64,000 nt of DNA from Hydnum rufescens UP504. Lineage: Eukaryota > Basidiomycota > Agaricomycetes > Cantharellales > Hydnaceae. The notes under the pieces were generated by a model. The model searched no databases, was not told the origin of the DNA, and saw only the letters and a program-made list of their open reading frames with translations. A program made the position numbers and the translations under genes. Within the stretch, counting starts at the first letter, position 1, and each line of letters begins with the position of its first letter. The stretch covers positions 1 through 64,000 of the forward strand of contig MU129062.1 of assembly GCA_014904985.1 (NCBI GenBank), in the 5' to 3' direction. Below are positions 1-55,732 of the stretch, piece by piece.

Positions 1-114
1 ATATAAAGGCCCTTTTGATCAATATTTGATATCAAAGAGAACACAGGCCTATTAGGTCCTATACAAACATCAAAATGACATGCCTTTTGAGATCAATGGA
101 AGTGTCTGACCAGC

Positions 115-1047
115 CTGACGAGATGACATTTTAAATTTGTTAAAAATTAAACATCATGCAAAAAGAGCAGCTTTTGCTGCTCTTTTTGCATGGCTGTAGG
201 TACTGGGGGGGCAGGAACTCACCTAGTATAGAACCACACACCCACCGTGGCAGGTGTGTGATTCCTGGGGTGTTATTTGATGCAGTTGCACCCTCGTTTA
301 GCGCAGTGCCGTATGTTGTGTTGTTGGTGCGTTGGGTTTGGCGCAATGTGGTGGCACATTGCTGTGTGTCACATTGCCATATATTGTGTTGCCATGTTGT
401 GTTTCCATGCATCACATTGCTGTTTGGGCTCTCATTGTTGGATGAGGCCTCAATCTGAAATAAATAAAGATATTAGTAAAATATTCCAAAGCAGCACAAA
501 AAGAGCAGCTTACACTGCTCTTTTTGTGCCACAAGAATAAAAAAGAAAAAAGAAGTCTTACTTTGTAGTACCCCACACCCGCTGCAGCAGGTGTGGGGTA
601 CTGGGGCTGTACTCCAGCCCATGGGCCCATCATTTGGGTGTCAATGGGCGGGTTATGGGGGTTCTTGCACATTGTGTTGTGGGTGGGGTGCCATATGTCG
701 CGTCATTGGGCGGTGCCGTATGTTGTGTCATTGGCATGGTGCCATACGTCACATCATTGGCGTGGTGCTGTACGTCACATCATTGGCATGGTGCCATACA
801 TCACATCGTTGGCGTGGTGCTGTATGTCACGTCATTGGCGCAGTGCTATATGTCACGTCATTTGGCATGTCTTCGTTTGGGGCATTGCCATTTGGGCCCT
901 CATTTCATGGGTTTTTGTCATGCCTTGGACCCCAGGCCTCAATCTAGAAGAATACACAATATGTTAGTAAAAGATTCAAAGAAGCGCAAAAAGAGCAGCT
1001 TATGCTGCTCTTTTTGCGCCGTTGTATCTACAAGCAAAAAAACACAC
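115..1047 (-). repeat. Inverted part-copy of the intron/hairpin modular array
   Basis: Read on the minus strand, three intron-shaped modules are present: 944-1047 (104 nt), 455-561 (107 nt) and 115-222 (108 nt). Each begins GTGTGT, GTAAGA or GTGAGT. Each holds a perfect or near-perfect stem-loop of the form GCAAAAAGAGCAG...CTGCTCTTTTTGC (984-1019, 494-529, 155-192) and an A-rich branch-point-like string (TTTTACTAAC, TTTTACTAAT, TTTTTAACAA). The first two end TTCTAG or TTTCAG before ATTGAGG. Just upstream of each 5' splice site lies a CCACAC...GTGTGG stem-loop. The order and the 104-nt first intron mirror the plus-strand arrays. The flanking exon-like stretches carry no convincing open frame. 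The copy is cut by the left edge of the window. Confidence 0.7.
687..868. repeat. 26-bp minisatellite
   Basis: About seven tandem copies of a 26-bp unit of the form GGTGCCATACGTCACATCAT plus TGGCGT. Copies differ mostly by C/T and G/A changes at CpG positions. It sits inside an exon-like stretch of the left array. A more degenerate relative of the same motif is visible at about 290-440. No coding role is evident. Confidence 0.75.
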
Positions 1048-1144
1048 CTTATGACCACACACCCACATTGGTGGGTGTGTGGTTGCACACTTGCCTTTCC
1101 GGGCAATAACCTGTTGTGGTTGTGGAGAGGAGAAGGAAGATGAG

Positions 1145-1800
1145 AAATTCAATCCCAGCAATTGCCAATACTCAAGAAGTGCCCAAGTGCTGGCACTACA
1201 AGCATAACACACATCCATAGCAAGCATGTAGATATGGAATAAATAGTATATAATAAATATTTTTCCAATAAAATGTGAAGAAAAAGAAGATAATGGGTCA
1301 GAGCTCAATAAGGCATGATATGGTTAATTGCAAAGTGGATTGGGCCAGTTCTATGCATCAGAATTAGCCCAAATTTAAATATAGTGATGGTATATATACA
1401 CCCTACATGGGTGATTAATTATCTCAGATGATTCTCGCATTTTCCAAGTTTTCACACCTTCAATTCCCTAAATAGGGAATTGAAGGTGTGAAAACTTGGA
1501 AAATGCGAGAATTGTCCAAGATAATTAATTGCCCATGTAGGGTGTATATATACCATCACTATATTTAAATTTGGGCTAATTCTGATGCATAGAACTGGCC
1601 CAATCCACTTTGCAATTAACCATATCATGCCTTATTGAGCTCTGACCCATTATCTTCTTTTTCTTCACATTTTATTGGAAAAATATTTATTATATACTAT
1701 TTATTCCATATCTACATGCTTGCTATGGATGTGTGCCATGCTGGCACTAGTGCCAGCGCTTGGCACTTCTTGAGTATCAGCAATTGCTGGCATTGAATTT
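1145..1800. repeat. Near-perfect palindrome, arms about 327 bp
   Basis: Left arm 1145-1470 and right arm 1473-1800 are reverse complements apart from a few substitutions and small indels, concentrated near the outer ends and about 40-65 bp from the centre. The centre is CAATTCCCT-AAAT-AGGGAATTG, so there is almost no spacer. Each arm holds a TATATATA string about 90 bp from the centre. Beyond the palindrome the symmetry continues loosely: the sequence ATAAGGT that begins the first array intron occurs at 1046-1052 on the minus strand and at 1941-1947 on the plus strand. The palindrome could be a foldback insertion or a shared divergent promoter for the two arrays. No target-site duplication was identified. 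Confidence 0.9.
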
Positions 1801-1853
1801 CACAACTACGCAGCCACACCCTGCAACAGAAAGGCAACTGCACAACCACAACA

Positions 1854-1883
1854 CAACAGCAACAGCAGCAGCAGCAACAGCAG
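1854..1883. repeat. CAG/CAA microsatellite
   Basis: A short run of CAG and CAA triplets lies between the palindrome and the first intron module of the plus-strand array. It has no counterpart on the left side, so it partly accounts for the unequal distance from the palindrome to the two arrays. Confidence 0.7.
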
Positions 1884-1945
1884 CCCCAGCACATGACCAC
1901 AGCCACACAACCACATACCTGCTGATGCAAGTGTGTGGTCATAAG

Positions 1946-4330
1946 GTAAGTTTTGTCTCAGTACCTACAATAGTGCAAAAAGAGTAGCGCAAGCTACTCT
2001 TTTTGTGCTGCTGTGAATCTTTATACTAACATAGCCTTTATTATTCCAGATCAAAACCAAAACAAACAACAGGCCACCCAATGAGTGGCCCCAGGAACCA
2101 CACCTGCTGCAGCAGGTGTGGTACTGTTTAAGGTGAGTCCCCCCCCCCCAATAGATACAGCTGCACAAAAAGAGTAGCGAAAGCTGCTCTTTTTGTGTCA
2201 CTTTACATTTTTTAACTAATAATATTTTATTCTAGGTATTGCCACAAATGAAGACCTGTGAAGCAACCCCAACATGCCCACAAAGGGGATCCGCAAATGG
2301 CACACCACATGAAGAGATGAACCACATACCTGCAGTAGTGGGTGTGTGGTTCTATACTTGGTATGTACCCCTAACGATGCAAGAAGAGCAGCAAAAGCTG
2401 CTCTTTTTGCATCGCTTTTAATTTTTTAACTAATTATTTTTTATTCTAGGTATTGTCACAAATGAACACCTGCGAAGTAAGCCCCCCCCAGGACAACAAC
2501 ACCCCTGCAAATGACAACATGCCATGAAGAGAAGAGCCACACACCCGCAGTAGTGGGTGTGTGGTTCTATACAAGGTGTGTAGTGTACCCCCAACACAAT
2601 GCTGAAAGCTGCTCTTTTTGTGTCACTTTTAATTTTTTAACTCATTATTTTTTTATTCTAGGGATTGTCACAAATGAAAACCTGCGAAGCAAGCCCCCCC
2701 CAGAACAACAACATGCAAATGGCGATGTGCCACATGATGAGAAGAGCCACATGCCCACAGTAGTGGGTGTGTGGTTCTATACAAGGTGTTGTACCCCTGA
2801 CAATGCAAAAAGAGCAGTGAAAGCTGCTCTTTTTGTGTCACTTTTAATTTTTTAACTAATAATCGCTTATTCTATGTATTGCCACAAATGAAGCCCCGCA
2901 AAACAAGTCCCCCCAGAACTGTAATGCCTGCAAAGGGGATCTGCAAATGACAATGCACCACACAAAGAGATGAACCACACACCTGCTACTGCAGGTGTGT
3001 GGTTCTATACTCAGTATGTAATGCACCCCCAACAGTGCAAAAAGAGCAGCAAAAGCTGCTCTTTTTGTGTTTATTTTAATTTTTTAACTAACACACGATT
3101 TATTTATTCTAGGTTATCACCTCACCACCCACCACACGAACCCCCTCCCCCCCAGAAATGACAATGTGACCTGCCAAGCTGCCAAAACCAATGCCGAATG
3201 AAGCCTGCCAATGATGACCAGCCAAGGGACACCCACCAGACAAATCCTGCAAATGGTAACACATGACGCAAGACCACGGAACCCCAAGACAAACCACACC
3301 CACTTCAGTGGGTGTGGTAATTTTAAGGTAAATAAATATGATTGCGCCAAAGGAGCAGCATATGCTGCTCCTTTGGCATAGCTTTTCTTTTTGTTTTTTT
3401 ACTAACATAGTATTCCTTATCCTAGGTTTTGATCTACCCCCACCCCCCAAATGAGACCCACAAATGACAGAACACACAAGGCCACAGAAGCCCCGGATGA
3501 AGCCCACACCTGCTTCAGCAGGTGTGATAATAATTTTTAACATAAGTATTTACCATTTAAGTATGACTGCGCAAAAGGAGCAGCATGTGCTGCTCCTTTT
3601 GCATGGTTTTTCTTTTTTTACTAACTTATTACTTATTATCATAGGTATTCTTCTAAACCCTCAATCAAGACTCGCGACCCTGCTGAATAAATATGCAACA
3701 ATGGCAACCCATCCCCCAAATGAAACCTGCAAATGACAGAACACGATGCGAGGCCACAGAAGCCCCAGATGAACCCCACACCCACTTCGGCAGGTGTGAT
3801 AATTTTTAAAGTAAGTATTTGCCCTCTATAAGTATGACCACGCCAAATGAGCAGTGCAAGCTGCTCCTTTTGCGTTACTTTGAATTTTTTTACTAATATA
3901 CACTATGATTCTAGGATCCAAAACAACAACCCACCCCAATGGCAACCTGCAACCTGTGCCCACCTGTGAAGTGCCAAGCCACACCCCCAGTACCACACAC
4001 CTGCCCAAGCAGGTGTGTGGTGCTACTAGATAGTTTTTATTTTAATTTTTGTGTTCTTTTATTTCTATGGACAGTACCACACACCTGCTAGAGTGGGTGT
4101 GTGGTGCTACTAAGTAGTTTTTTTTCTTTGGATTTCTACTGAGTACCACATCAGATACAGTATTTAAATAAATAAATAATAAGAATAATGGGACTGCTGA
4201 ATGAAACCCTGCTGACCTGGGGTAGCATAAGTATAATATAGTGATAATAAATAAATAATTATAAATGGAACATACTATCCCTGATAAGCCTGTATGGCCC
4301 ACTGTCCTGCAAGTCTGAGAATCTCTAAGT
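1946..4330 (+). repeat. Modular intron/hairpin array, copy 1
   Basis: Nine modules run head to tail. Intron-like parts: 1946-2049, 2133-2235, 2361-2449, 2576-2661, 2786-about 2875, 3014-3112, 3328-3425, about 3541-3644 and 3811-3914. Each has a GT start (mostly GTAAGT or GTGAGT), a central stem-loop, TTTTTAACTAA or TTTACTAAC, and usually TTCTAG. The first six carry AAAAAGAGCAG/CTGCTCTTTTT stems (the fourth has lost its left arm); the last three carry AAAGGAGCAG/CTGCTCCTTT stems, the ninth degenerate. The 83-215-nt parts between them end with a GGTGTGTGG-type stem-loop about 8-15 nt before the 5' splice site. Three sites have decayed: the fifth module has TCTATG for TCTAGG, the eighth has AT for GT, the fourth lacks half its stem. 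A terminal block (3915-4330) has two more CCACACACC stem-loops. No frame stays open across the spliced parts. Confidence 0.75.
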
Positions 4331-5068
4331 CAGACTGAAAGACCGTGACTTCTTGCCATTGTCTGAGAATCTCTAAGTCCCAGTCTAAGGTGAGAGGGGC
4401 CCCCAGGGGCCCCTTGTCTCATGCCATGAAATCACCCAGTGGGCCCCAGGGGCCCCCACCTAAAAACCTGCTCTTAGATTGAATAAAAGCAAGGCAAAAG
4501 GGCCTAACTAGATATACAATTATGGCTGACTGGTTTGCACATACCCTTCAATATTCATTCTCCCCAGAATCATATCATCCCCTCCTCGCCCACCAACCAT
4601 CGATGATGGGAAGACTGGGCCATCCTAAAACCATCACCTTTCGAATTGGTATTTCAGTGGCTTGCTCTGACGATCTTCATTGGGCTTGGTGCTTATATGC
4701 TCCTTGCCTATTGTCCCTCATTGCCCATCCCCTCCTCCCATTATGATTGGTTATCTTGAACGTGGAAATGTTGATGTTGATAACGGTCTTGTTTGTTCAT
4801 TGCATTCTCCAGGCTTGGAAGTGTCTTGTAGCCTCCTGCAAGTATGAAAACAGATTTTTGGCCTGGTACATTTCAATGGAGACCACCAATATAATCTCAG
4901 GGCTGATTGGCTCTCTACTGTTGTCAAAAGGAGGGACAAGATATTTGCAAGTCTTGGAAGTGTACTGGAAGAATTATATTATAAGAGGCGAAAAGATGCA
5001 GCCCAGGGTCATTGTGTGTGTGTTGGACCTGGGACCTATCCACCAGGTACTGCCGCACACCATCTATC
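4331..5068. other. Unassigned stretch upstream of the orphan gene
   Basis: Positions 4331-4480 carry repeats of GTCTGAGAATCTCTAAGTC and runs of AGGGGCCCCC. From 4522 there are coding-looking fragments on the plus strand (for example 4522-4746 and, in another frame, about 4850-5060 with the peptide VVKRRDKIFASLGSVLEELY), but stops and frame changes interrupt them. They may be upstream exons of another gene or remnants of one. I recognise no family. Confidence 0.3.
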
Positions 5069-5964
5069 ATGGCTAACATCATTTGTTCTGCCAAGTCTGG
5101 CAGTGACTGGTTGCTCAATGAACTAGACTCATACCACATTAGCCTCAATCTGATAGACCCCCTCACATTCTTTGGCATGCCGGTAGGCGAGGTTACATTT
5201 GTGGTAGCTCTTGGAAAGACTATAACAGCTTTTTGCATCACAGGATTTGCCACAACCATTGGTTGATCAAGAGCTGCTAAGCAATATCAATGCTGGTGCT
5301 ATGCAACAAGACTGCCACGCTGTGTTGATCGCATATCTCAATATCACCATGGTCCCCCAAAAGGGTGAAACCACTGTGGACAACTTTGCCATCAAGCTCT
5401 TCAAGGTTCTGGGTTATGTTGGTCAAGGCCGAGTAGCACACACACAGGTGGATCTGTTGCTTCATATTTGCAGTGAAAACAGGCACACAAAGACCAATGT
5501 GTGTATTGTCGATTGCTCTCAGAACGATATTCTTCTCCTTGTCCAGGAGGACAAGAGGTTTGATGCCAAGCAGCCTGTCAATGCATGGGCTCAGCTGGTA
5601 GCAGAGGCAGTTGCAGCCTTCAACGAGAATAATGCACAATGGGAAGTGGCTGGACTCCCTCCTCTGGTGGAGAAGGCAAGTCATTTCATGAGTTTGTGGA
5701 CTTTTTCTGAGAGTTTGTACTTCTTAGGTCATGCCCAGCATTGTTATGGTCGGCACCTCCCCTGCATTCTTCAAAATCCCCATCACTCAAACTCTGTCAA
5801 CTCATATTTGCCATGGAACCTACCCTGAGGAGGAAACCCGTGTGACCTATTGTTATCTGCCCATTTCTCATTTGCATCAGCATAGTGAAGGGATGAAGCC
5901 TCTGGACAACAGGCATCAGATTTTGAGATGCTATGAAGCATTTAAGGTGATTGTGGGTATATGA
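5069..5964 (+). CDS. Orphan protein of an expanded basidiomycete family, PD-(D/E)XK-like motif
   Basis: Three exons, 5069-5182, 5244-5675 and 5728-5964, give a 260-residue protein in one frame. The start fits the family opening (residues 4-19 IICSAKSGSDWLLNEL, then TFFG near 33). Residues about 60-180 form the conserved core, with VDNFAIKLFKVLGY, then KTNVCIVD followed after about 10 residues by LLVQEDKRF. The spacing D...(E)xK resembles a PD-(D/E)XK nuclease fold; that link is my inference, as the family has no assigned function that I know of. The C-terminus ends GMKPLDNRHQILRCYEAF, which I recall as typical of the family. Intron 1 is GT-AG (61 nt); intron 2 (5676-5727) starts GCAAGT, a GC-AG intron. 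The frame is intact, in contrast to its repeat-filled surroundings, and a 44-bp minisatellite begins at the stop codon. Confidence 0.8.
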
Positions 5965-6403
5965 GTTGGACTCAGTGTATGGGTGAGAATTGTTACTACC
6001 ACTTCATATGTTAGACTCAGAGTACGGACAAGATAGTTACTACCACTTCATATGTTAGACTCAGAGTATGGACGAGATAGTTACTACCACTTCATATGTT
6101 AGACTCAGTGTACAGACAAGATAGTTACTACCACTTCATATGTTAGACTCAGTGTACAGATGAGATAGTTACTACCACTTCATATGTTAGACTCAGTGTA
6201 CAGACGAGATAGTTACTACCACTTCATATGTTAGACTCAGTGTACAGACGAGATAGTTACTACCACTTCATATGTTAGACTCAGTGTACAGACGAGATAG
6301 TTACTACCACTTCATATGTTAGACTCAGTGTACAGACGAGATAGTTACTACCACTTCATATGTTAGACTCAGTGTACAGGCGAGATAGTTACTACCACTT
6401 CAT
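5965..6403. repeat. 44-bp minisatellite, about ten copies
   Basis: A 44-bp unit containing TAGTTACTACCACTTCATAT and GTTAGACTCAGTGTACAGAC repeats about ten times without a break, starting at the base after the stop codon of the orphan gene. The middle copies are almost identical; the first two and the last differ most, the usual pattern of an array that turns over from the inside. If the gene's transcript runs on, this would be its 3' untranslated region. Confidence 0.9.
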
Positions 6404-6945
6404 ATTGTCTAAGGGGGGCGTACCCAGCATGATACTGCTTGTACCCAGCCATGTTGCCGACCCCTAACAATTGCTGTCAACCCTCCATAATTCATCTCCA
6501 TTACACTCCAAATTGCTAGGATGTGTGTGTCTGGTATATATCTAGGACTATGTGCAAAGAGGCAAAAAGAACACCAAGTTGCACCTGTAGGGGTCAATTG
6601 TGGCTAAGAATGCAGCAAATTCACAACTTTTCAGTGATTAAAAATGTATTCACAACTCTCATCATCTCTCCCTCACCATCCTTCTTTCCGCCTCACCATT
6701 GTCTTTCCACATCATCATCATTTCTGCCTCCTCATGATCCATTTCTTCTTGCATATTGGCCTTGCTTATGACCCCTCCCCCATGTGTAAATAGTTATTAA
6801 TTTTCATGAATAGCAGTTGCTCTAAGTTTACATAACTTTGACCAACATTGCAGAAAAGTGTGGACTTAGAAAGAAAAAAGTAAGATGGAGATAAAGAAAG
6901 CCAAGACTGGTGGACTTGTAGTGGACATGAATGCATGGTCATAAG
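6404..6945. other. No gene recognised
   Basis: AT-rich sequence with a TCATCAT/CCTC-rich patch at about 6655-6745. I see no conserved frame. The last 30 bases lead into the first module of the second array, and the match between the two arrays begins abruptly just before ATGGTCATAAGG at about 6935, so this is the left break of the second copy. Confidence 0.4.
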
Positions 6946-9475
6946 GTAAGTTTTGTCTCAATACATACAATAGCGCAAAAAGAGTAGCACAAGCTACTCT
7001 TTTTGCACTGCTGTGAATTTTTATACTAACATAGCCTTTATTATTCCAGACCAAAACCAAAACAAATGACAGGCTGCCCAATGAGTGGCCCCAGGAACCA
7101 CACCCACTGTGGCAGGTGTGGTCCTATTTAAGGTGAGTCTCCTCCCCCCCAATAGATACAGCCATGCAAAAAGAGCAGCAAAAGCTGCTCTTTTTGCACT
7201 ACTTTGAATTTCTTTACTGACCCCCTTCCATTCTAGGTCATGGCATGGAGTCAAATGAAGCCACCAAATGACAAGGCCTGATTGGCCAGGGCCCCAGCAG
7301 AAATACACAAAACCATGTGAAACAAAACAAAACAAAGCCAAATGAAATGACACCCAACCCCATGCCAAACCAATGAAACCACACCACACCCAACAAAACC
7401 ATGCCACACCCAATGAAACCATGCCACACCCAATGAAACCACACCACACCCAACAAAACCATGCCACACCCAATGAAACCATGCCACACCCAATGAAACC
7501 ACACCACACCCAACAAAACCATGCCACACCCAACAAAACAATGCCAAGTGAAAACGCGAGAGGTGGCCATGCGAACCACACACCCACTGCGGCAGGTGTG
7601 TGGTTCTATACAATGTAAGTAATCTTGTGCACCCCCAACAGCGCAAAAAGAGCAGCAAATGCTGCTCTTTTTGCACTGGTTTTAATTTTTTAACTGATAA
7701 TGTTTTATTCTAGGTATCACCACAAATGAAGACCCATGGAGCAAGCCCCCCCCCCCCCTGAGATCAAACTCCTGCAAAACAAGACCTGTGAGCAACAATG
7801 CACCAAACAAAGCCATGAACCACACACCTGCTACCACAGGTGTGTGGTTCTATACAAGATAAGTAATTAGTGCACCCCCCCCCCTCACCAACACAAAAAG
7901 AGCAGCCCTTGCTGCTCTTTTTGTGCTTGTTTTAATTTTTAACTAATAAATTCTCTATTATTCTAGGCTATCGCCTGAACCACCCGCCAAACGAACCCCC
8001 TCTCTGGGAAATGACAACACAACATGCCAAGGAACACCCCCCAGATGAAACCCAGGACCAAGAACACATGATGTGGGGCCCCAGGGACCCCAGATGAACC
8101 ACACCCACTTCAGCAGGTGTGTGATAATTCTAAGGTAAATACAACCATGCAAAAGGAGCAGCATACACTGCTCCTTTTGCACGGCTCTTCTTTTTTTTCT
8201 TTTACTAACATATTTACTATTCTAGATGGTCAAGCAAAATGACAACCGCCAAATGAACCTGCCCAACTCCCCCCTGGGAATGATGATGCAACCACCAAAA
8301 CAACACATGCCAAATGAAACATGCCAACGATGACCAGCCAGACCAAACCCAAGAGAGTCCCACACACCCACCAAAGTGGGTGTGTGGTAATTTTAAGGTG
8401 AGTACAACTGCACAAGAGGAGCAGCGTATGCTGCTCCTTTTGCGTGGCTTCTCTTGTTTTTTTTTTTTACTAACATATTATTTATTATTTTATTTTGTCA
8501 TCTGGACCTAACACCCACAACCCTGCTGAATGAACACAAGAGAACAATGACCACCCGCCAAACGAATCCCACAAACAGCAATGAGTCAAAACCCAATGCA
8601 AGCCCCAGACGCACCCCACACCTGCTTCGGCGGGTGTGTGGTAATTTAAGGTGAGTACAACCATGCAAGAGGAGCAGCATACGCTGCTCCTTTTGCATGG
8701 CTTTCCTTGTTTTTTTTTACTAACATATTATTTATTATTTTATTTTGTCATTTGGACCCAACACCCATGACCCTGCCAAACGAACACAGGAGAATGACGA
8801 CCCACTTGCCAAACGAATCCTGTGAACAGCAACAAGTCGAAACCACGATGCAAGCCCCAGACAAACCCCACACCCACTTTGGCAGGTGTGGTAGTCTTTA
8901 AGGTAAGTATATATGTACATGTCCAACTATGCAAAAGGAGCAGCAGGGGCTGCTCCTTTTGCCTGGTTTTTCTTTTTTTAACTAACTTATTATTTATTAT
9001 CATAGGTATTCTTCTGAACCCACATCCCCCAACTGAAGCCACAACCCTGCCGAGTGAAAACATGCGACCATGGGTGAGGGGGAACCCAACAGTGAAGCAT
9101 GAAATAATGTCCCCAGTACCACACACCCGCCCAAGCGGGTGTGTGGTGCTACTAGATACTAGATAGTTGTTATTTTAATTTTTTTGTTTTTTGATTCACA
9201 TGGACAGTACCACACACCTGCTAGAGTGGGTGTGTGGTGCTACTAAGTAGTCTTTTTTTTTAAATTTCTACAGAGTACCACACACCAGAGTGGGTGTGTG
9301 GTATAATTTTAAATAAATAAATAAATAATAAGAATAAAACATGGGACTCCTGAATGAAACCCCGCTGACCCAGGGTAGCATAAGTATAATATAGTGATAA
9401 TAAATAAATAATTATAAATGGAAGATATTATCCCCAATAAGCCTGTATGGCCTGCTGCAAGTCTGAGATTCTCTA
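6946..9475 (+). repeat. Modular intron/hairpin array, copy 2
   Basis: Eight modules, with intron-like parts 6946-7049 (104 nt, the same length as the first intron of copy 1), 7133-7236, 7615-7713, about 7859-7966, 8135-8225, a part starting 8398, a part starting 8651, and 8903-9005. The first four hold AAAAAGAGCAG (or GAGTAGC) stems, the last four AAAGGAGCAG or GAGGAGCAG stems, the same order as copy 1. The fourth has AT for GT at its 5' end. The sixth and seventh have good 5' ends, stems and TTTTACTAAC, but the 3' AG is replaced in both by TTTTGTCAT(C/T)TGGACC, so one is probably a tandem copy of the other. The terminal block with two or three CCACACACC stem-loops and the following TAAATAAATAATAAGAATAA sequence (to about 9475) matches the end of copy 1. 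Confidence 0.75.
7369..7545. repeat. 20-bp minisatellite with 60-bp higher-order period
   Basis: A 20-bp unit (CCAATGAAACCATGCCACAC and variants CCAACAAAACCATGCCACAC, CCAATGAAACCACACCACAC) repeats about nine times. The variants recur in the order A-B-C, giving a 60-bp super-unit. It expands the exon-like stretch between the second and third introns of array copy 2; copy 1 has nothing like it there. Confidence 0.85.
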
Positions 9476-11334
9476 AGTCCCAGTTTCAGCCAATTTTTGG
9501 CCATTTCGGCCAATTCTGGGCCAGGAGGTGAAATCATAAAAATGGCCATTTCAGCTGAAATAGTGATGGGACCTACTTAGGTACCATTATCTGCCCTGGA
9601 AGTGGTACCTAACTAGGTAGGCTTAGATGACTGACCAAGGTGACAAATTAATGGAAGATGAGAACAAGCTCTCAGTCAATGGTTCAATCCCACTTCACAT
9701 ACTCATGGATTCTCTCAAGTCATCCAACCCAATCACAATTTGGCATCCCATCAATATGACACTCTCACCAAGCAAATATCTTAATGCCAAGGTACATTAT
9801 GCTGTAGTGCCCCAGCAATACAACAATTGATTTGTTCCAGATTCTCTTGGTAAACAATGGCGAAAATGGCAATCCTGGCAATCCCATTACAATATTGTAT
9901 TGTACAAGAGTCGTTGGCAGTGCCTTGAGTCCCCTCAGTAATTACTGCCACCAAGGTGATGGTGCACTTCCTCCTCATGTTTCTAGTTCAATCAATGTGT
10001 ATGTACAATTGAACCTCATTCCGAATTATTGATTTTAATGGCTTGTGTCATGTAGCACACATGAAGTGAACTTCAAAGCACACATGGTCCTTATCCACAC
10101 AGTAAACCCAACATTTATTCATCAAATGCATGTGGGTATTGACTATTAAGACTCTCTATGTGTGTAAATCAATTCTAAACTGGCCCCTAAATAAAGACGA
10201 TTGAGGGTGCATTTGTTGATATGACCAAGTTCAAGAATGTCTCCTCAACAAACCCTCGCAAACAGTGGAATCACCCCACTCCCAGTCTTGTGTCTTATTC
10301 AATTAGCCACAATCTATTTGCCAATCATCATGAAATGGTGAAAATTGGTGCTGATGTTGAAGCACATGGGAGTGTTCATCTGGTGCTTGAACAAGCTGTA
10401 AAGTCATGTGACTCCACTGCCGATCACATGTTTGTTTGTCCCAGTGCTCCCAATATCATCAAGCACGACAACAGTCATTACAGTGGGATACATTTCACTT
10501 CCAACACTGGAGATCAGATCCAACAAGGTGATGTCATTGTAGTCACCACAACTATAACTGGTTGGAAGGGACCAACCAGCTGGCAAGTTGATCTCGAGCC
10601 ACAGGAAATAATTCGAGTGGCTTCATCTTTTATGGTGAGTGTAGCACATTGTAACTTTGGAATTCTCTATTATTAAACATTGTCTATTGAAGCCTGAAAA
10701 TTCCCCAACTTCGAAGAGAAAGCAACTTGGAGAATCAGATGAAAAGTATGGCAATGTCTCATACTTTCCGTGACTGATAAAATTGGGATTCAATGCTGCA
10801 AATACATAGTCTCATCCTAAACAGAGCACAAGATAACATGCCTTCCAACACTACAGCTGGATTGACTACATCTGACACCAAGCTTCATGATGAAGACAGT
10901 ATGGACATGGAGGATGTTCTACCAATGAACAAGGGTAAAACATCAGTCAAAAAGTCAAAAGTGTCCAGTTGAAAATGATCCTCCAGGTCAATGTACACTA
11001 AAATATGCTCTCATGTACTACTAGTTATGAAATACAAATCTCCACTCCATGCCTGTCATTAGAGTCGGGGACTGGCACTTGCTGCCACTACCAATAGTAT
11101 ATGGTGGCTGGAGTGAAAGTAATGGTTCATATTGCCTCAAAATGGGGCCTAGGTGATGGACTCACAAGCAAGATGTAAAGCAAGATTGGCAAGATGTGTC
11201 CTAGGTTCAGGAACTCAACCAAAAAAACAACAAACATGGGGCAAGTGGTCCTATAGTGAGGCTAGTTATTCATAAACACGATATTAGTATAGCAAACCAG
11301 ACAGTAGGATTCTTTTATTGCAAAGGAGCACCCA
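9476..11334. other. Unassigned region with two weak open frames
   Basis: Two plus-strand frames stand out, 9627-9830 and 10221-10676 (151 codons). The second looks protein-like in composition (for example MFVCPSAPNIIKHD and GDVIVVTTTITGWKGPTSW), but I do not recognise a domain, no splice sites join the two convincingly, and the base composition matches the flanking repeats. Motifs such as ACCTACTTAGGTACC and GTACCTAACTAGGTAGG at 9570-9625 are partly inverted copies of each other. The remainder to 11334 shows nothing I can name. Confidence 0.25.
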
Positions 11335-15076: not shown

Positions 15077-15364
15077 GCAAGTGCACTCTTATATACACTT
15101 TTAGCAATGAACAGTGAGTAAGCCTGATTCACCACAAGTGCTTACGCGCTTGGAGCATGATGTAACCGATAACACCGGAAACGCGCGGGGCTGTGCGTTC
15201 ACGGCGGCAAGCGTGACCATCGTGACACTACTGTGACTGTTGCATGACAAAGCCGTGACAGCCCCAATGGACTCACTGCTCAACCCGACTATCCCAACCT
15301 GGCGTAAGTCTCTCCCAACGCTGCAGCCAGTACGTATATCGCATGTCACAGAGGGGAGGTAGTT

Positions 15365-16501
15365 GTGACTTGTGCCAAGAGTTACTTCACTAGTGCCTTG
15401 TTTGTCGATCCTCTCCGGCGTGACATCGACGGCTTGCTTAAGGCGTTCCTTCGGCGATGCTCTGTGGCACTCCACAGGAAAGAGCAGATCAGTCCTTTTT
15501 CCTGGTTTAAGGCAATATGGAAGGACCAGCGCTGGGATCTGCTACATCTCCGAGTCGTCGAGTCGAGAGCGCGCAGGGCATTCGTTGACACCGTACTGCG
15601 ACTCTTCATTGGTATGCAAAGATTCGGGCTGTGTTTCTATTTAATAAATAGCATTGATACCCCTTTTTTGTGGATAGAACGCATTGTTCCCTCGGAACCT
15701 GGTCTTAACCAGTTGACTGCATTCTTTGGGCTCTACACCTTTTACAATACTCAACCGAGGGCACCTGACTTGGCACTGTATTACCAAGCGCAGATACTTA
15801 TACCGATAGGTAGGTCATTCACTCGTTCCGTTAATGCGCTGCGAGCTCATATATTACGCTCTACAGACACGTACCAGCACTTACTAAGCCTACCCACATT
15901 CCTTCCGCCTGGATTCGACCACTACGCACACTATATTATGCAATCCCTAATCGATAAAGATTCATTTTCTCTCCTCCCACGTTCAGAATTAGGTCCCTTT
16001 AATCCGCGAGTTCTTCCCCACACCACACTCCAAAAAATTTCTTCGGCGCCGCAGCAGGCGAATACCCCTGGAGACCAATCGACTCCCACCCCTTCCTCCA
16101 CATCTGTGGAAGCCTCGATCTCACTACCCACGCCTAAAAACAAACCCGGGCGTCCGAGCGCGTTGGAAATCCAGAAGCGAAACGCGCGTAATCTGTCCGC
16201 TCTAGACAAGTGGGCGACCACGAATCTGGATCCGTCCCGTTCGCTCAACATGTCGATCCACGTGAATCCGTTGGTGCGAGAAGAGGGCTCGTACCTGGGT
16301 GCCAAAGAGGCATTGGTTGAAGCCGTGGCGAAGGAAGAGTTGGAAGAGGCGGAAGAAGTGACGTGGAAGAATATGTTGGAGGTCGATGCGTATGCACAGG
16401 AGAGAGGGCTGAGATACGGACGTGAGGGGGTGGAGAGAGTGGAGCGTGCGCGAAGGGAACCAAATGGTTTGTTGGGTCTAGTAGCCCCTATGAAGAAATG
16501 A
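15365..16501 (+). CDS. SNAPc subunit SNAP43/SNAPC1-like
   Basis: Likely subunit of the snRNA-activating protein complex, which recruits RNA polymerases II and III to small nuclear RNA promoters. The N-terminal part has the SNAP43 pattern: DPLRRDIDGLLKAFL, then WDLLHLRVVESRARRAFVDT, then LNQLTAFFGLYTFYNTQP, and DTYQHLLSLPTFLPPGFDH. Two introns are likely, 15612-15677 (66 nt) and 15810-15866 (57 nt); both are multiples of three and lack stops, so the frame reads straight through them. Residues after about 200 are low-complexity, followed by an acidic/basic helix (about 300-350). No ATG opens the frame: the first codon of the open stretch is GTG, so the true start lies in an unrecognised upstream exon or is lost to a base error. 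It faces away from the pirin remnant across about 290 bp. Confidence 0.65.
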   Translation: MTCAKSYFTSALFVDPLRRDIDGLLKAFLRRCSVALHRKEQISPFSWFKAIWKDQRWDLLHLRVVESRARRAFVDTVLRLFIGMQRFGLCFYLINSIDTPFLWIERIVPSEPGLNQLTAFFGLYTFYNTQPRAPDLALYYQAQILIPIGRSFTRSVNALRAHILRSTDTYQHLLSLPTFLPPGFDHYAHYIMQSLIDKDSFSLLPRSELGPFNPRVLPHTTLQKISSAPQQANTPGDQSTPTPSSTSVEASISLPTPKNKPGRPSALEIQKRNARNLSALDKWATTNLDPSRSLNMSIHVNPLVREEGSYLGAKEALVEAVAKEELEEAEEVTWKNMLEVDAYAQERGLRYGREGVERVERARREPNGLLGLVAPMKK

Positions 16502-16677: not shown

Positions 16678-18293
16678 ATGCCATACCAGGTCCTGCCCAT
16701 CGTGTGCGCTCCGAGTGCTTTGGTACCCGCCACGTCTCCCTGCTTCTCCGACTACTTCACCACTACCCCTAGAAACAAAGGCTGAAGCGGAAGAAGAGGA
16801 TAGGACCAAGCTTGTTATTCATACGGATGGGGCCAACCTTTAGGTGCTCAGGCCATCCGTGGAACTAACAAGGATGAAGGGCCCGGAGCATGCATATTGC
16901 TCTTCATACCCGGTACGTCTTTCTCTATCGAGCAATTCCGTGTTCTATGTTTCTCACTGTTATTCGTTGACGCATAATTTTATCGTAACTATCGACTGTC
17001 GATTGCCGGCAGGAAATCCTGGGATCGTCCACTTCTACACCGAATTTTTGAATGCGATCCACGATGCCTACCCGTCCCTTGGTATTCTAGCCAAGTCGCA
17101 TCTGGGACATACCCCCCGCCTGAATAATTGGGATGTCCAGGGCGGGCCTGGTCCCGGAATGTCAAATCAGGCGGCGGGGCTGGAAGCACAAGTGGAGAGT
17201 GCGATAGAGGTATATGATGCCCTTGCGCGGGAATATCGAGGGTGTAAAAGGCGGGATTGAAGATTGTGTTAGCTGGTCATAGTGTTGGGAATTGGATTAT
17301 TACTCAGGTATGTTTATATGTGCTCCGTATGGTCCACCAGTTCGCCATTGCTCTTCAGGGGATGGTAATTTTTCGCTTCTTTTTTTTTTTTTTCACCTAG
17401 ATTATGAAAGCGCGTCCCGAAGCTGTGGATGGCGCATTCATGCTCTTCCCTACCGTATGCGATATGGCTCAGACACCTAATGGACGTCGTCTTCGGGTGG
17501 GTGCATTTAGGCACTCGCTTGTATCGCTCCTTACTCTTCTCCTTTTTTTCATGCGATTTGGACGGGCCGATCCCTCCGCAGCCATTATTTTTTTTCGTAT
17601 CGGCATACATCCTAGCAGCCGTCGTGGCGGTATTCTTCGTGTACCTTTTCCCCGCGCCATTGACGCTGCGCCTATGCGAGGCGCTCTTCCCAATTTTCCC
17701 ACGCTCGCAGTTGTATGTGTTGAGGAGCCTGATATGTTCACCGCGGACAGTGTTCAGTGCTCTACGGATGGCGAGGGATGAAATGAGGATCATCAAGGGG
17801 ATTCAGGATCTACCGTCATACGACGACCCTCCCCTGGAAGAGGGGGAAGAAATCCGGACAAGCGGAGGCGGAACGAAGGGCGAGAAAGAGGAGTCGTGGG
17901 GGATGGGGGAGGGAGGAGCCGTGGCGGACGTGTTGCGTACGAATGCGAAAGGCATATGGGTATATTTTGCGGAGAGGGATAATTGGGTGGGTGAAAAGGG
18001 ACGAGTGGAGATTTATAGAGCGCTTAAAGAAGGTGGAGGTGCATTTGATGAAGGGATGGGAAACGGCAGTGGGGAGGCTGTGTTTGGGAGTGATGGTGTC
18101 CCTCACGATTTTTGCATCAGTGAGTACTGGGTTTGTTCCGTCGATGGCCTTGCTTAAGTTTGTTTTGGTGGCCCAACCTCGGATCATTGCTTATCTGATC
18201 CTTGGGCTGATCGTTTGGCTAGATCATGATGGTATCATTGCACAGTATTGTATACGATGGCTGCGCGATGGCGGGTTCATAAAGAATATATAG
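16678..18293 (+). CDS. Lipid-droplet-associated hydrolase (LDAH, DUF2305 family)
   Basis: An alpha/beta hydrolase that acts at lipid droplets; the substrate is debated (sterol or triglyceride esters). Five exons: 16678-16912, 17013-17307, 17401-17496, 17582-18119, 18223-18293. Family marks in order are LLFIPGNPGIVHFYTEFL, the nucleophile elbow VLAGHSVGNW, MLFPTVCDMAQTPNGRRL, a hydrophobic stretch with PLFFFVSAYILAAVVAVFF, RMARDEMRII, the acid region FAERDNWVG and the catalytic His in VPHDFCIN. Both Ser and His motifs are intact. Three single bases appear to be missing, in CCCC at 16766-16769, TTT at 16839-16841 and AAAA at 17246-17249; adding one base to each run gives one continuous family-like frame. 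A low-complexity acidic/glycine stretch (EEGEEIRTSGGG region) interrupts the C-terminal half. Confidence 0.8.
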
Positions 18294-19385: not shown

Positions 19386-22300
19386 ATGATTTCCTCTGCG
19401 CCTGGACCCATTGACCTCACCCAGGCAGATGATGACCAGGATCAGAGGCAAGCAAAGAAACCGCGCACTGACTCTACTTCAACAATCTCCACTCCTCACC
19501 CTCAAAACTACTCCCATATCCCTACAGCTCTCCCACTCTCACCCCCTATTCTCAACAGACATCCTGGGCCTCTTCGAATCCATCGGATCCATCTAGTGCT
19601 CAGTCGCCGTACTCTGGTCCACCGACGTTTTATCGCCAAAACTATCCCCCCCCATCCCCCCATCCCCTTCCTCAACCTTCGTATTTCCCTGAGGGAAGGT
19701 ATGGCCCCCAGCCTCAACAGCCCCAGTCCTCATACGCGCCTCAACGCGCTTACCCCGCGCAACAAACCCAAACCTCACCATCAGCACGACAACCACAGCT
19801 ACCACAGCCATCTCTTCCTTATCCACAACAACCTCCCCCACGCAATGTAATCGATCTCACGGCACACCTCCCCCTGCCCAGAATGGTGCCATAGTAAAAG
19901 ATGTCCGCCGTGATGTTGTTTGCATTGGTCAAATCCAAGCGACAGCTCTCGTTCTCTATCCTATACCTTACGTCTGCCTTCAGCAAGCAGCCGCCTCTGG
20001 GTCGCACGTTGCAACCGGCGAAGATTTCGTCCCGGTCCGGTTAAAGTACGACGATGCAAGCAAGAAGCGAGCCCGCTTTCCTCAGCAGCAACACGAAGAA
20101 ACCATTCAGATCACTGCTCCGACTCAGAAAGGCCCTCAAGGCGAGACCCTTGGTGGAGAAGATTTCGGTGTCGTCGAGCAACGCGTCGCAACTGTCCTTG
20201 GTCCTCTGATGCAAAAGGTCCTGATCCGGTTAGAAGCAGTCGTCAAGCGCACCATGAGTAGCGCCCCGATTTTGCCCTTGCGGATACTGGTCTTCACTCC
20301 TAGGGGCAATGTCCAAGTCGTCGCCACCTACTTATCTGGTGGCAACATTCTGTTGGAGCACCCTGCTGTTCCTTATAATCCCGCAGACCATAGAGATATG
20401 CCCCCTTACGAGAATCCCCACAATCCACCCCCAGGTGGATCCGATCAACGCTACCCTTCAGGACAAAGTCGTTGGAGTCAACAAGCGGTGGCGGGCAAGA
20501 GCGTCGAAGTCCAGCGAAGTCAAGTCGACGAAGTCTTCAAGAGTCTTCGGAGTGGCGAGGACCTCGCCGAGACTGAGGGAGGTATGTGATGTCCGGAACC
20601 CTTCGCTCTTCTGAACCTTCATGATTCGAATTAATCCAGGTTCAAATGTCGCGACGAGTCTTTACCCACATCAGAAAAAGGCACTTACGTTCCTCCTTGA
20701 ACGAGAGAAGGAAAAGAGACCCCTGGTAACTCTGGTTGGCTTTGGCAATCTCGCAAGGATTTATCGGGTCGCATCCGAGCATGGTTCAATCCGGTAACTG
20801 GGAAAGAAGTTACCAAGGAACCCCCAGAAGCAAAAGGCGGTATCTTGGCGGATGACGTGGGTGTCCCTTCAATCTCGTGCATCATCATCGTAGATTTAAT
20901 CCTATGTTTTGTAGATGGGTCTTGGTAAGACCATATCTGTGGTTTCGCTCATGGCCAATACCATGGATGCCGCTCGCGTATTCGCCTATGGCCCAATACA
21001 AAAGATCACTCTTCGTGTTCCTAAAGCTGCTCCTGAACCGCCTCTCACTGCCGCCCATTTTGCTGGGACAGTGTGGGGCATGCCTGACACCTCTGGGGAT
21101 CTTGACCCGACCTCAATAGACTCGACTTCCACCCTCGGAAAGAACGGCAAAGGGAAAGGCAAACGAGAGACGTTGAAGGAACTCATGGAGGCTGCTCGTG
21201 CTGCCCGTATCAAGGCGAAGAGTCGAGCAACGCTGATCGTCTGTCCGCTCTCGACAATTGCGAATTGGGAAGATCATTCAAAGAGCACTGGGCAGGCGAG
21301 GTAACCGTTGTTGGCGGAACGTCTGGGCCCGCAGTCCCGTGTTCGGTTCAACAAGCCGCTAGAGACGCAAGAGAGCGTCATGGGGCCAAGCTTAAACTAT
21401 ACGTCTACCACGGTGCTGCACGACGTCCCGATACGAGCTTCCTTGCGGACTTTGATGCTGTTATCACTACTTATTCGACCTTGGCCACTGAGTATTCCAA
21501 GCAAACGAAGAGTACTGCTCTCTACGAAGATGATGGTGCTGATGGTGCTGGGGGCGGCCCCGACGATGATAGTGGGAGTGAATCCTTCTCAGATGAGGGG
21601 AACGGTAGCATGGTCATCAAGTTGAAGGAGAAGAAGAAACCCAAGAAACGACCCCCTGGGGCCGCTCTCGCTGCTGGCATCGAGATATCCAGCCCGCTTC
21701 AGCAAATCCATTGGTTCCGTGTTGTACTTGACGAGGCGCAGTGAGTAGTACCTTCGTTCGTCCCTCATGATTACTGGAGAGTGAAGTAATGGATATGTAA
21801 TAGTTCCATCAAGGAAACCTCGACAATCGCAAGTCGTGCATGTTGTGACTTGATGGCCGATAGACGACTATGCCTCACGGGAACACCCGTGCAGAACAAG
21901 CTCGACGACGTGTACGCACTTATAAAATTCCTTCGTTTCAACCCATTCGACGACAAAGCCATTTGGTCCGAATACATCGGTGGCCCGGCCAAGTTTGGTC
22001 AACCGCTCGGCGTCGCACGCTTGCAGACGATCATGAAATCAGTCACCCTTCGCCGTACGAAAGAAAGCACCGATGCCGATGGGAAAAAGATTCTCGATCT
22101 GCCACCGCGTCATGACGAAGTGCGGTACCTCAAGTTCGACGATACGGAGAAGACGGTCTATGACTCGTACTATACAGAGTCCAAGGCCGAATTCAGTCAG
22201 CTGCGGAAGAATGGTGAGGTGATGAAGAACTATGTTGGGATCCTGCAGAAGATCCTACGATTGCGGCAGATCTGTGATCACTACGAACTTGTCAAGGGCA

Positions 22301-23718
22301 AGGATGAAGTAGTCTCAGCGGAGGCTATGGATTATGATCAAATCATGTCCTCTATTGCCCGCGAAGGGATCACCATCACCTCTGCGACGGCAATCTTTTC
22401 GCTTCTTCGTGACGCTGGCACTTCCCAGTGTGTGGAATGTGGGCTAGACTTGGCTGCACCAGGTGCTACCGCACTTCTAGATGGCACGGAGCTTGACGGA
22501 CCAAGTACAAGCAAGCGGGCGCGCAAGACGACCAAAGGTCCCGGCGGTTCACGTGGGCCGACGCGCGCCAGCAGTCCCTCAGGCCCTCGACCAGTGATTA
22601 CGCGATGTCAGCACCTGTACTGTATCGAATGTTTCCGACTGAGCATATGTCCCAATTGGCCCAAGGTTCGCGCGGAGATTCACAGGGCATGTTCCGTATG
22701 TCAGGCTGATCTCTCGCCGTTGGCGGATGCGGTCGAGGTCAGCCCTGACGGTCTCATACCGAGCGAGCTTGCCCCCAAGAATCGGCCTGTGAAGAAGGAG
22801 AAACGGCAGAAGGGTGCCGGATTGCTGGGATACAACGCATCGACCAAAGTCCGAGCACTCATTGGGGACTTGATGGCGACATCACAGGTCAATCCGAACT
22901 CTGCCAACTTCGATCCGAACATTGCAAGCGAGATTCAAATGACCGACAGCCATGGACGTGAGACGGATGAGGGCCAGACGAAGACGGTCGTGTTGTGAGT
23001 GCTTTCTTCAAGCTGACGCAACCTTTTTTAATTTGGGAATGCTCACCCAATTTCACCAGCTCTCAATGGACGAGCATGCTCGACAAGTAGGATGTTTCCG
23101 TACTCTATTTCAGTGGATGTCGCCTACTGACCATATCACGGCTAGGATCGAGGATGCATTAGAGGAGGCGAACATCCGATACGATCGGCTGGATGGAACG
23201 ATGAAGCGTGAGGAGCGTACACGGGCGATGGATGCTCTCAAATATGATCCCAAGACCGAAGTACTACTGGTTAGTTTGAGGGCTGGTGGTGTTGGTCTCA
23301 ATCTAACGGCTGCGAGGCGGGTGTACTTGATGGATCCCTACTGGTTCGTTACGCTCCCCCCTTTCGTTTTTCCTCCTTCATGAAGCTTGACGTTTGGAAT
23401 CCATTCAGGAATCCTGCGGTCGAGAATCAGGCAGTAGATCGAATTGTACGTAGCCCTCACTTCATGTCACGAAGGACGATGATTAATCCATTACTCTTTA
23501 TTGCACGCAGCATCGACTGGGACAGAATTTATCCTGTCAAAACCATCAAGATGATCATGGAGGACTCGATCGAGACGCGCCTTCTCGAAGTGCAAGCGCG
23601 CAAAACCCAGCTTGCGAACATGACGCTAGGGCAGCCTTTGAGCAAGGCCGAAATGATGCAACGCCGGATGGAAGAACTGAATGAGCTGTTCCGTGACACT
23701 GACACTAGAGCGCCATAA
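19386..23718 (+). CDS. HIRAN-SNF2-RING DNA translocase, HLTF/Rad5-like
   Basis: Likely nuclear ATPase of the Rad5/HLTF group, which remodels stalled replication forks and ubiquitinates PCNA. After a Gln/Pro/Tyr-rich N-terminus comes a HIRAN-like domain (from about 19880, VKDVRRDVVCIGQIQATAL), then helicase motif I (ILADD split by intron 20857-20914, then MGLGKT), Ia (TLIVCPLSTIANW), II (DEAH, completed across intron 21741-21803), III (RRLCLTGTPVQN), then a RING finger with CVEC, CQHLYCIEC and CSVC, and the C-terminal lobe with FSQWTSML, LVSLRAGGVGLNLT, the DPYWNPAVENQAVDRI block and HRLGQ. Further introns are 22996-23059 and about 23087-23144, 23345-23409 and 23444-23510. Apparent missing bases at 19520-19522, 20720-20723 and 21276-21277, and one oddity near 23526, break the frame. 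The RING has an unusually long insert between its first CxxC and the CxHxxC, rich in Ser/Pro/Arg. Confidence 0.85.
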
Positions 23719-54598: not shown

Positions 54599-55732
54599 CT
54601 ACTTAAAGTAGGGCAAAATAAACGAAAGTTTCTTGCGGTCTTCCTCCGATTGACGCTCTTGCGGAGTAACGATGGAGAACCTCATGCTACCGATTACATT
54701 CGTAAGCACGGTGTCCTTCTCTACAATGTCGTGCACGTGTTCTATGATAGCGGCTGCAACGCGACGCGATGTGGCAGCATTGTCTTGAAGAGTCTTGAAT
54801 ACCTCGGAGACCGTGACAGGGTCCTCGCCAACGCGCCAAGCATCGTAGTCCGTCGATGTAGCGATTAAAGCATAACTAGCGAGAGAGGATGGGGAAGTGA
54901 ATGATATCGAACAGCGCACAACATCAAATACGTATCGGGGGGAAGGGAAGAGGTCCCACCTAAGTTCGGCCTCGCGGGCCAACTTGGCTTCCGGAATGAC
55001 GCTCATGTTAATGATGTCGCCACCCCACGCACGATACATTAGGCTTTCTGCGCGAGTCGAAAACTGCGGTCCTTCCATGCACACCACAGTTTTGTCCAAA
55101 TGGAGTTGCCTCTTCTCACTGGCAAGCGCTTCTTTGATCAGAGGCGTTATGAAATTCACAAGCTGGGTGTCGAAGGGATCGCCAAACATGGCATGGGCGA
55201 CGACGCTTGTACCATCGAAAAAGGAGGCAGGACGAATCCCCTTGGTGCGATCGATGATCTGTGAGGGGATAACGAAATCTCCTGGTGCAATTTCCTCACG
55301 TAGAGATCCTACGGCACTAAAAGCGATGATTGCTTTCACCCCGATCGAGGACAGTGCCGCTATGTTGGCCCGGGCAGGAACAGCAGAGGGATTGACGGAA
55401 TGGGCTACACCGTGTCGCGCCAGGAAGGCGACCTGCGCGCCATTAGGAAGAGAGGCAATGGTAATCGGGGAACTAGGGTAACCCCAGGGCTAAGGACGGG
55501 GGAGATGGCAAGATCAGTGCAATCGGTCTAGCAACGAATGTGCATGGACGTGCCGTCTCGGGGTTGATCGTTTCGCTGGATGTCACTTACATATGAGTAA
55601 TAACAGGATGACATCTGGGCTTATGGGTGGCTGCAGCACGCTGACTTACACGAATGTCAAGACGTCGAGTTTGTACAGTCCACTACCTCCGATAATGCCC
55701 ACCAAAGGTGCTGAAATTTTAACCCTCAGCAT
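54599..55732 (-). CDS. S-methyl-5'-thioadenosine phosphorylase
   Basis: Cleaves methylthioadenosine to adenine and methylthioribose-1-phosphate in the methionine salvage pathway; cytosolic. The start at 55732 gives [20 protein letters not shown], the phosphate-binding GGSG motif. After an intron (within about 55460-55655) come [107 protein letters not shown] and then the last exon ending ILPYFK at 54599. Active-site residues of the family (RHG, EGPxFSTRAE, N-M-S, SD/STDYDAW) are present. The frame is intact apart from spliced introns. A second, truncated copy lies about 3 kb to the left. Confidence 0.9.

Follow-up and report, generated by a model that had tools for sequence, protein, structure and literature searches.

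Hairpin-bearing intron-like units of Hydnum rufescens form divergent arrays within a dispersed DNA transposon, probably of KDZ type

Introduction

The window analysed here is a 64,000-nt stretch of Hydnum rufescens UP504 (positions 1 to 64,000 of contig MU129062.1), and its first kilobases raise an unusual question: what kind of sequence repeats, unit after unit, an exon-side hairpin followed by a small intron that itself encloses a hairpin? An original prediction made from the sequence described about twenty such units and proposed either a multi-exon structured non-coding RNA or a repeat that persists because splicing removes it. These units are parts of a dispersed DNA transposon, 4.7-6.7 kb long when complete. 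The transposon itself, its ends and target duplications, its inverted left arm, its central palindrome and its link with Kyakuja-Dileera-Zisupton (KDZ) elements had all been missed.

Array units in the window

The core pattern of the intron hairpin (AGCWGY-N4-GCTGCTC, at most one mismatch, searched on both strands) occurs 35 times in the window, whereas 100 shuffled sequences averaged 0.22 matches. Of these, 34 lie before 9 kb, while the remaining one (58749) resembles a CTG run. The predicted number of about twenty units agrees with our count: three in a left arm, nine in a right arm and eight in a second, partial copy. A single plan had been claimed for all of them; this holds for most, but the three units before 1.1 kb (hairpins near 165, 503 and 993) face the opposite way, on the minus strand.

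The left arm, read outwards on the minus strand, contains a first exon hairpin (1052-1085), intron 1 (944-1047, 104 nt, GTGTGT..TTCTAG), another exon hairpin (566-603), intron 2 (455-561, 107 nt, GTAAGA..TTTCAG) and intron 3 (118-222), with its 5' splice site at 222-221, its hairpin at 154-193 and its acceptor side cut off. The introns were read from the sequence and the exon hairpins come from the hairpin search. A 26-bp tandem repeat occupies positions 686-862 of a left-arm exon. The arm is truncated by the end of a neighbouring KDZ-type element (12-117, minus strand, CAGGCTGGTCAGAC); this end motif covers 102-117, and the sequence from 117 to 12 matches the terminal part of L031, a KDZ-bearing stretch, at 80%.

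A central palindrome (1138-1807), whose halves are 94% complementary and which is a putative bidirectional promoter, separates this arm from the right one. The right arm lies on the plus strand and its nine introns (1946-3914) face right. It begins with a first exon hairpin (1910-1939), intron 1 (1946-2049, 104 nt), a further exon hairpin (2097-2122), intron 2 (2133-2235, 103 nt) and intron 3 (2361-2449, 89 nt). Intron 4 (2576-2661, 86 nt) has a branch site reading CTCAT and a degenerate stem near 2604, and intron 5 (2786-2875) has lost its acceptor (TCTAT instead of TCTAG). Introns 6 (3014-3112, 99 nt), 7 (3328-3425, 98 nt), 8 (3546-3644, 99 nt) and 9 (3811-3914, 104 nt) follow. Two terminal exon-type hairpins (3989-4024 and 4073-4108, together spanning 3989-4108 on the plus strand) and an AATAAA at 4167 precede the right end of the element, TGGCTGACTGGTTTG (4523-4537, plus strand), which coincides with a sharp alignment border in 6 loci.

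The second copy (6936-9642, plus strand) is left-truncated. Its eight units (6946-9005) include the introns 6946-7049, 7133-7236 and 8903-9005, and it closes with the right end of a second subfamily, TGACTGACCAAGGTG, at 9628-9642. One of its exons is long and carries a 20-bp tandem repeat of the CCACACCCAAT/CAAAACCATG type (7370-7549).

The five junctions originally named (1946/2049, 2133/2235, 3014/3112, 6946/7049 and 8903/9005) are all GT..AG pairs, both by direct reading and by script. Every unit had further been said to carry a splice-competent intron; most have the signals of one, but several have lost a signal: besides the introns from 2576 and 2786, those from 8398 and 8651 have no acceptor. 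An exon hairpin in every unit had likewise been proposed; many units have one, but in the wider collection described below the search found it for 152 of 240 introns, in the 110 nt that precede them. For 141 of these 152 introns the hairpin stops 3-16 nt short of the chosen 5' splice site.

A dispersed transposon with defined ends

A 401-base probe compared with the genome (63.2 Mb, 539 contigs) gave at least 149 matches, the best 40 of 1459 candidates being scored. Positions 1-10000 of the window were then compared with 20 loci picked from the best probe matches. The alignments end abruptly at element borders, marked by imperfect terminal motifs of approximately 15 bp. The left end reads CAGGCTGGTCAG[TC]CA (CAGGCTGTCAGTCA in locus L023), and the right end takes one of the two subfamily forms given above. 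Within the window plus these 20 loci, two ends on the same strand, separated by 1.5-9.5 kb, occur at 11 loci and make up 13 pairs. An exact 8-bp target duplication surrounds the nearest end pair in 7 of these 11 (L009, L010, L013, L020, L022, L023 and L026, the flank of L023 being a simple CAA-type repeat), and L011 has an 8-bp duplication with one mismatch. L016, L017 and L021 possess both end motifs and no matching 8-bp duplication. The seven loci with an exact duplication are referred to as complete copies. The target duplication of the window copy itself is unreadable because its left part is cut, at 117, by the end of the other element.

Genome-wide, the left-end pattern occurs 691 times, KDZ elements included, while the exact right ends are found at 77 sites for TATGGCTGACTGGTTTG and at 318 for the form of subfamily 2. 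Exact stems number 3319 for the intron type and 3642 for the exon type over the 63.2 Mb, with none for a reversed-pattern control. Scaling these exact counts by the fraction recovered in the compared sequences gives about 7,500-7,600 intron-type and approximately 7,300 exon-type hairpins, rough totals since the loci were chosen for their similarity to the window. Variation among copies largely resembles CpG decay to TpG or CpA, which in our reading suggests that the element is methylated at cytosines. Among ORFs of 90 aa or more in two complete copies (L009 and L013, read by eye), the longest lying wholly inside an element is repetitive and 210 aa long. Rfam gave no match in the window at gathering score.

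The internal plan is strictly ordered. All 75 oriented introns of the seven complete copies (12, 12, 11, 8, 9, 12 and 11 per copy; 3-4 in the left arm and 5-8 in the right) point outwards, those on the left facing left and those on the right facing right; this count takes in oriented hairpins only, and 33 of the 271 in the whole set could not be oriented. In 6 of the 7 complete copies the centre is a palindrome of about 0.65 kb, which has been lost in L022. Altogether 24 palindromes of about 0.4-0.67 kb were found in 20 of the 21 sequences. Their halves are 86-98% complementary within copies, whereas the window palindrome shows 92-94% identity to those of its own subfamily and 81-84% to most others, which indicates that the two halves evolve together. 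The first exons of the left and right arms also share sequence, as judged by reading.

Foldback-like elements have large inverted arms and a palindromic centre, without a recognisable protein. The array elements resemble them in these three respects, the last judged by eye from the ORFs of two copies, but their terminal repeats are short and their arms carry ordered splice signals together with two kinds of hairpin. The proposal of a repeat surviving by being spliced out is not supported: the units sit inside one 4.7-6.7-kb element, and exons with a median of 142 nt would remain in the RNA.

Relationship to KDZ elements

The 8-bp duplications and CAGG ends suggested a hAT origin. This was dropped since the ends occur near KDZ domains and not near hAT domains: none of 18 PF05699 matches has an end within 6 kb downstream facing inward. 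The genome contains at least 154 KDZ transposase matches (best 150 of 584 candidates scored). For the comparison, 99 of the 100 end sites listed (on contigs up to C29) were set against the 23 KDZ matches listed on contigs up to C26. An inward-facing end motif was observed 1.6-3.0 kb downstream of 7 of the 23 KDZ domains, where the genome average predicts 0.28; in one of these seven pairings the more distant of two candidate ends was used. In a local control, the motif lies upstream, in either orientation, of 2 of the 23 domains, so that repeat clustering explains part of the association. Two KDZ-bearing stretches, L030 and L028, share a 2.0-kb segment with 96% identity whose alignment opens precisely at the end motif; over its initial 100 bp, L030 also matches array elements at their left ends (76-80%). 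Three stretches of 9.4-9.6 kb yielded no opposite KDZ end of the kind that closes the array elements on the right.

The position of the end motif downstream of KDZ domains suggests that the array element is likely a non-autonomous DNA transposon of KDZ type. Target duplications of 8 bp have been described for Zisupton, and of 7 bp for Kyakuja (PMC12730594); KDZ elements with 8-bp duplications are also reported in PMC12810828. The array elements share with the KDZ group the 8-bp duplications and, in this genome, the CAGGCTGGTCAG end motif. They differ in having no KDZ domain or other recognisable protein (ORFs of two copies, by eye), in carrying arrays of hairpin introns and in being 4.7-6.7 kb long, as compared with approximately 9-11 kb for KDZ1-3 of Cryptococcus according to PMC12810828. 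In L029 (C26:386500-396000), near 9369, the end motif of a KDZ stretch adjoins array-intron-like sequence (89% to window 2007-2140), an arrangement that looks like a KDZ element inserted in an array element.

Splice signals and non-coding exons

A strand-symmetric search identified 271 intron-type hairpins, 238 of which have a branch-site motif on exactly one side, in agreement with the prediction of structured units with spliceosomal signals. In a separate, earlier search, 240 strand-hits had a branch motif, 16 of them on both strands. The first acceptor lies 16-24 nt after the branch A in 224 of the 240 and an upstream GT is present in 239, giving a median intron length of 104 nt; the 5' splice site consensus is flattered by the choice of the best-scoring GT. 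Hairpins elsewhere that keep their stems and lack GT, branch point and AG would have spoken against the original prediction. No such class emerged in the 20 further loci, the hairpins that could not be oriented being the 33 mentioned above. In L033 (C1:104000-106500), an intron hairpin at 730-779 has an enlarged, partly duplicated palindrome within an otherwise regular array.

The signals vary less than their surroundings. Across 24 copies of introns 1 and 2, the 30 signal columns taken together have 23 minor cells out of 715 where random columns would have 52 (P 0.026), and the ten core columns (GT, branch A, AG) contain 2 against 17 (P 0.034). When four loose consensus columns are left out, a choice made after two of them had been seen to vary, the remaining 26 columns have 4 minor cells of 619 against 45. 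With possible-CpG columns also removed, 3 are left against 18 (P 0.024), and against the other intron columns the same CpG-free signal columns show 3 versus 25 (P 0.0008). The copies are related, so that unit counts are not independent.

The sequences between the introns show no coding sign, as originally predicted. The 137 internal exons lying between introns 40-320 nt apart (median 142 nt) are A/C-rich, and their lengths modulo 3 are distributed 38/36/63. Stops occur at 0.033 per base, against 0.035 after shuffling, and 70 of the exons have an open frame where 62 are expected. Exon lengths and stop frequency thus give no support for coding exons, and this reading was dropped. A generally well-folded exon RNA was also considered and rejected, as sense exons fold less than antisense ones in 57 of 60 cases.

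Hairpins as probable RNA structures

The stems change in pairs, transversions among them. At position 8 of the intron stem A-T (185) alternates with G-C (52), with one A-C; position 12 is A-T in 186 and C-G in 22, and position 4 C-G in 206 and T-A in 21. In the exon stem, position 10 is A-T in 119 and C-G in 40. Paired change is compatible with selection on RNA and also with the main rival, unlikely but the most serious, which is that the units are DNA-level repeats: protein-binding or recombination-prone palindromes, for example transposase-binding arrays, whose pairing is kept by template switching and whose splice signals are left over from part of an ancestral gene that tandem duplication has multiplied. 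The stem sequences are more constant than pairing alone requires, the units are repeated in tandem, and the large palindrome is homogenised within copies, so that a DNA process correcting its halves could also keep short stems paired. Mismatches are divided on this point. Outside CpG, exon stems contain 29 G-U against 2 A-C mismatches, while intron stems show no G-U excess (22 against 23), as DNA-level maintenance would have it. The asymmetry therefore holds for exon stems only and was rejected as a general test for RNA.

The loops point the other way. Of 238 intron hairpins, 108 are capped by GNRA loops (GAAA, GCAA, GTAA) on the predicted sense strand and 5 on the antisense strand. For UNCG loops the corresponding figures are 23 and 1 among 163 exon hairpins, the orientation of 70 of the 233 exon hairpins being unassignable. 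After clustering by relatedness, the majority loop is of GNRA or UNCG type in sense in 18 of 60 intron clusters and 8 of 49 exon clusters, and in coarser clusters in 6 of 16 and 5 of 28, the antisense strand giving none at either level. Many of the other loops look to us like products of CpG decay, from C(GAAA)G to T(GAAA)G or C(AAAA)G. Tetraloops that are cluster majorities on the sense strand only, splice-signal columns less variable than others, a strictly outward order and units that fill the arms and not just the ends all argue against repeats kept at the DNA level.

It had also been proposed that the stem could bring the 5' splice site and the branch point together. In yeast, a stem in this position can aid splicing, presumably by shortening the distance (PMC2536676). 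The present introns resemble these zipper-stem introns, of the RPS17B type, in the placement of the stem, but here the hairpins are repeated, tetraloop-bearing and part of a transposon. For 216 introns of 85-125 nt, folding reduces the distance from 80 to 20 nt, but with the intron middle shuffled it falls to 18 nt, so that a special shortening role is not upheld. Among the 216 folds, 57 leave the 5' splice site unpaired, compared with 31 of the 216 shuffled ones, and a freer 5' splice site is a weaker possible role of the stem.

Interpretation

Considered together, these features are probably best explained by a non-autonomous, probably KDZ-type transposon carrying two divergent, heavily spliced, structured non-coding RNA units. 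The central palindrome would act as a bidirectional promoter from which both arms are transcribed outwards. Hairpins would fold in the nascent RNA and the small introns would be taken out, leaving as cargo an A/C-rich RNA with exon hairpins. Removal of introns may favour accumulation of this RNA, as is possible in basidiomycetes: in Cryptococcus, introns raise RNA accumulation cumulatively, according to PMC3744415. Such an effect could be an advantage to a non-coding RNA that contains numerous small introns, and we therefore favour divergent, heavily spliced RNAs as the cargo. The DNA of the array would be moved in trans, through the shared ends, by the KDZ transposase of other elements.

A more specific version of this model is more tentative. 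The element might be an "RNA-gene transposon", mobilised by KDZ transposase, with a divergent pair of intron-dense, structured non-coding RNAs as its sole cargo. Selection would work at the RNA level, on GNRA-capped intron hairpins and UNCG-capped exon hairpins, because the spliced RNA itself might act for the element, for instance in escaping or countering host RNA surveillance.

Two further explanations are much less convincing than DNA-level repeats. It is improbable that the element is mainly a source of small RNAs, in which read-through of the palindrome or pairing between arms would yield double-stranded RNA that silences the element or its relatives. The near-universal palindrome (20 of 21 sequences) and the mutually complementary arms of all units would suit this, but it leaves the splice signals and sense-strand tetraloops unexplained, and the stems of single units, at roughly 9-18 bp, are rather short substrates for Dicer. 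Least probable of all is an introner-like origin, with hairpin introns spreading singly into genes and the arrays as their nursery: thousands of copies with strong fungal splice signals around a stable stem would fit, but window genes beyond 9 kb have no core-stem match except the one CTG run, and the one isolated-looking exact match examined (L032) proved to be a short array. Introners sit in genes, and those of ascomycetes are described in PMC9860276 as lacking target duplications and terminal repeats. The likeness lies in the large number of nearly identical introns of spliceosomal type, which here enclose a stable stem, but these introns are part of a long non-coding element which has both target duplications and terminal repeats.

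Non-autonomous DNA transposons are a known kind of element. Our searches of open-access papers brought up no element matching the array transposon, and its contents matched nothing there. If its transcripts are spliced as predicted, it would be a case of a DNA transposon that spreads a non-coding RNA unit rich in introns instead of a gene for a protein. Its thousands of related hairpin introns would then offer a natural test bed for the way RNA structure guides splicing, and would bear on whether introns shield transposon RNA from fungal RNA surveillance.

Neighbouring sequences

Between the two array copies of the window, positions 5989-6405 consist of a 44-bp tandem repeat with about ten copies. 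From 10 to 64 kb the window is ordinary gene-bearing sequence. A SNF2 protein encoded there has a named relative, at 59% identity, in the mushroom Sphagnurus paluster (Agaricales). Among ten ORFs scanned, Pfam matches correspond to SNAPC1 (15308-16501), LIDHydrolase (17408-18157), SNF2 (21790-22998) and PNP_UDP_1 (54599-55489, minus strand).
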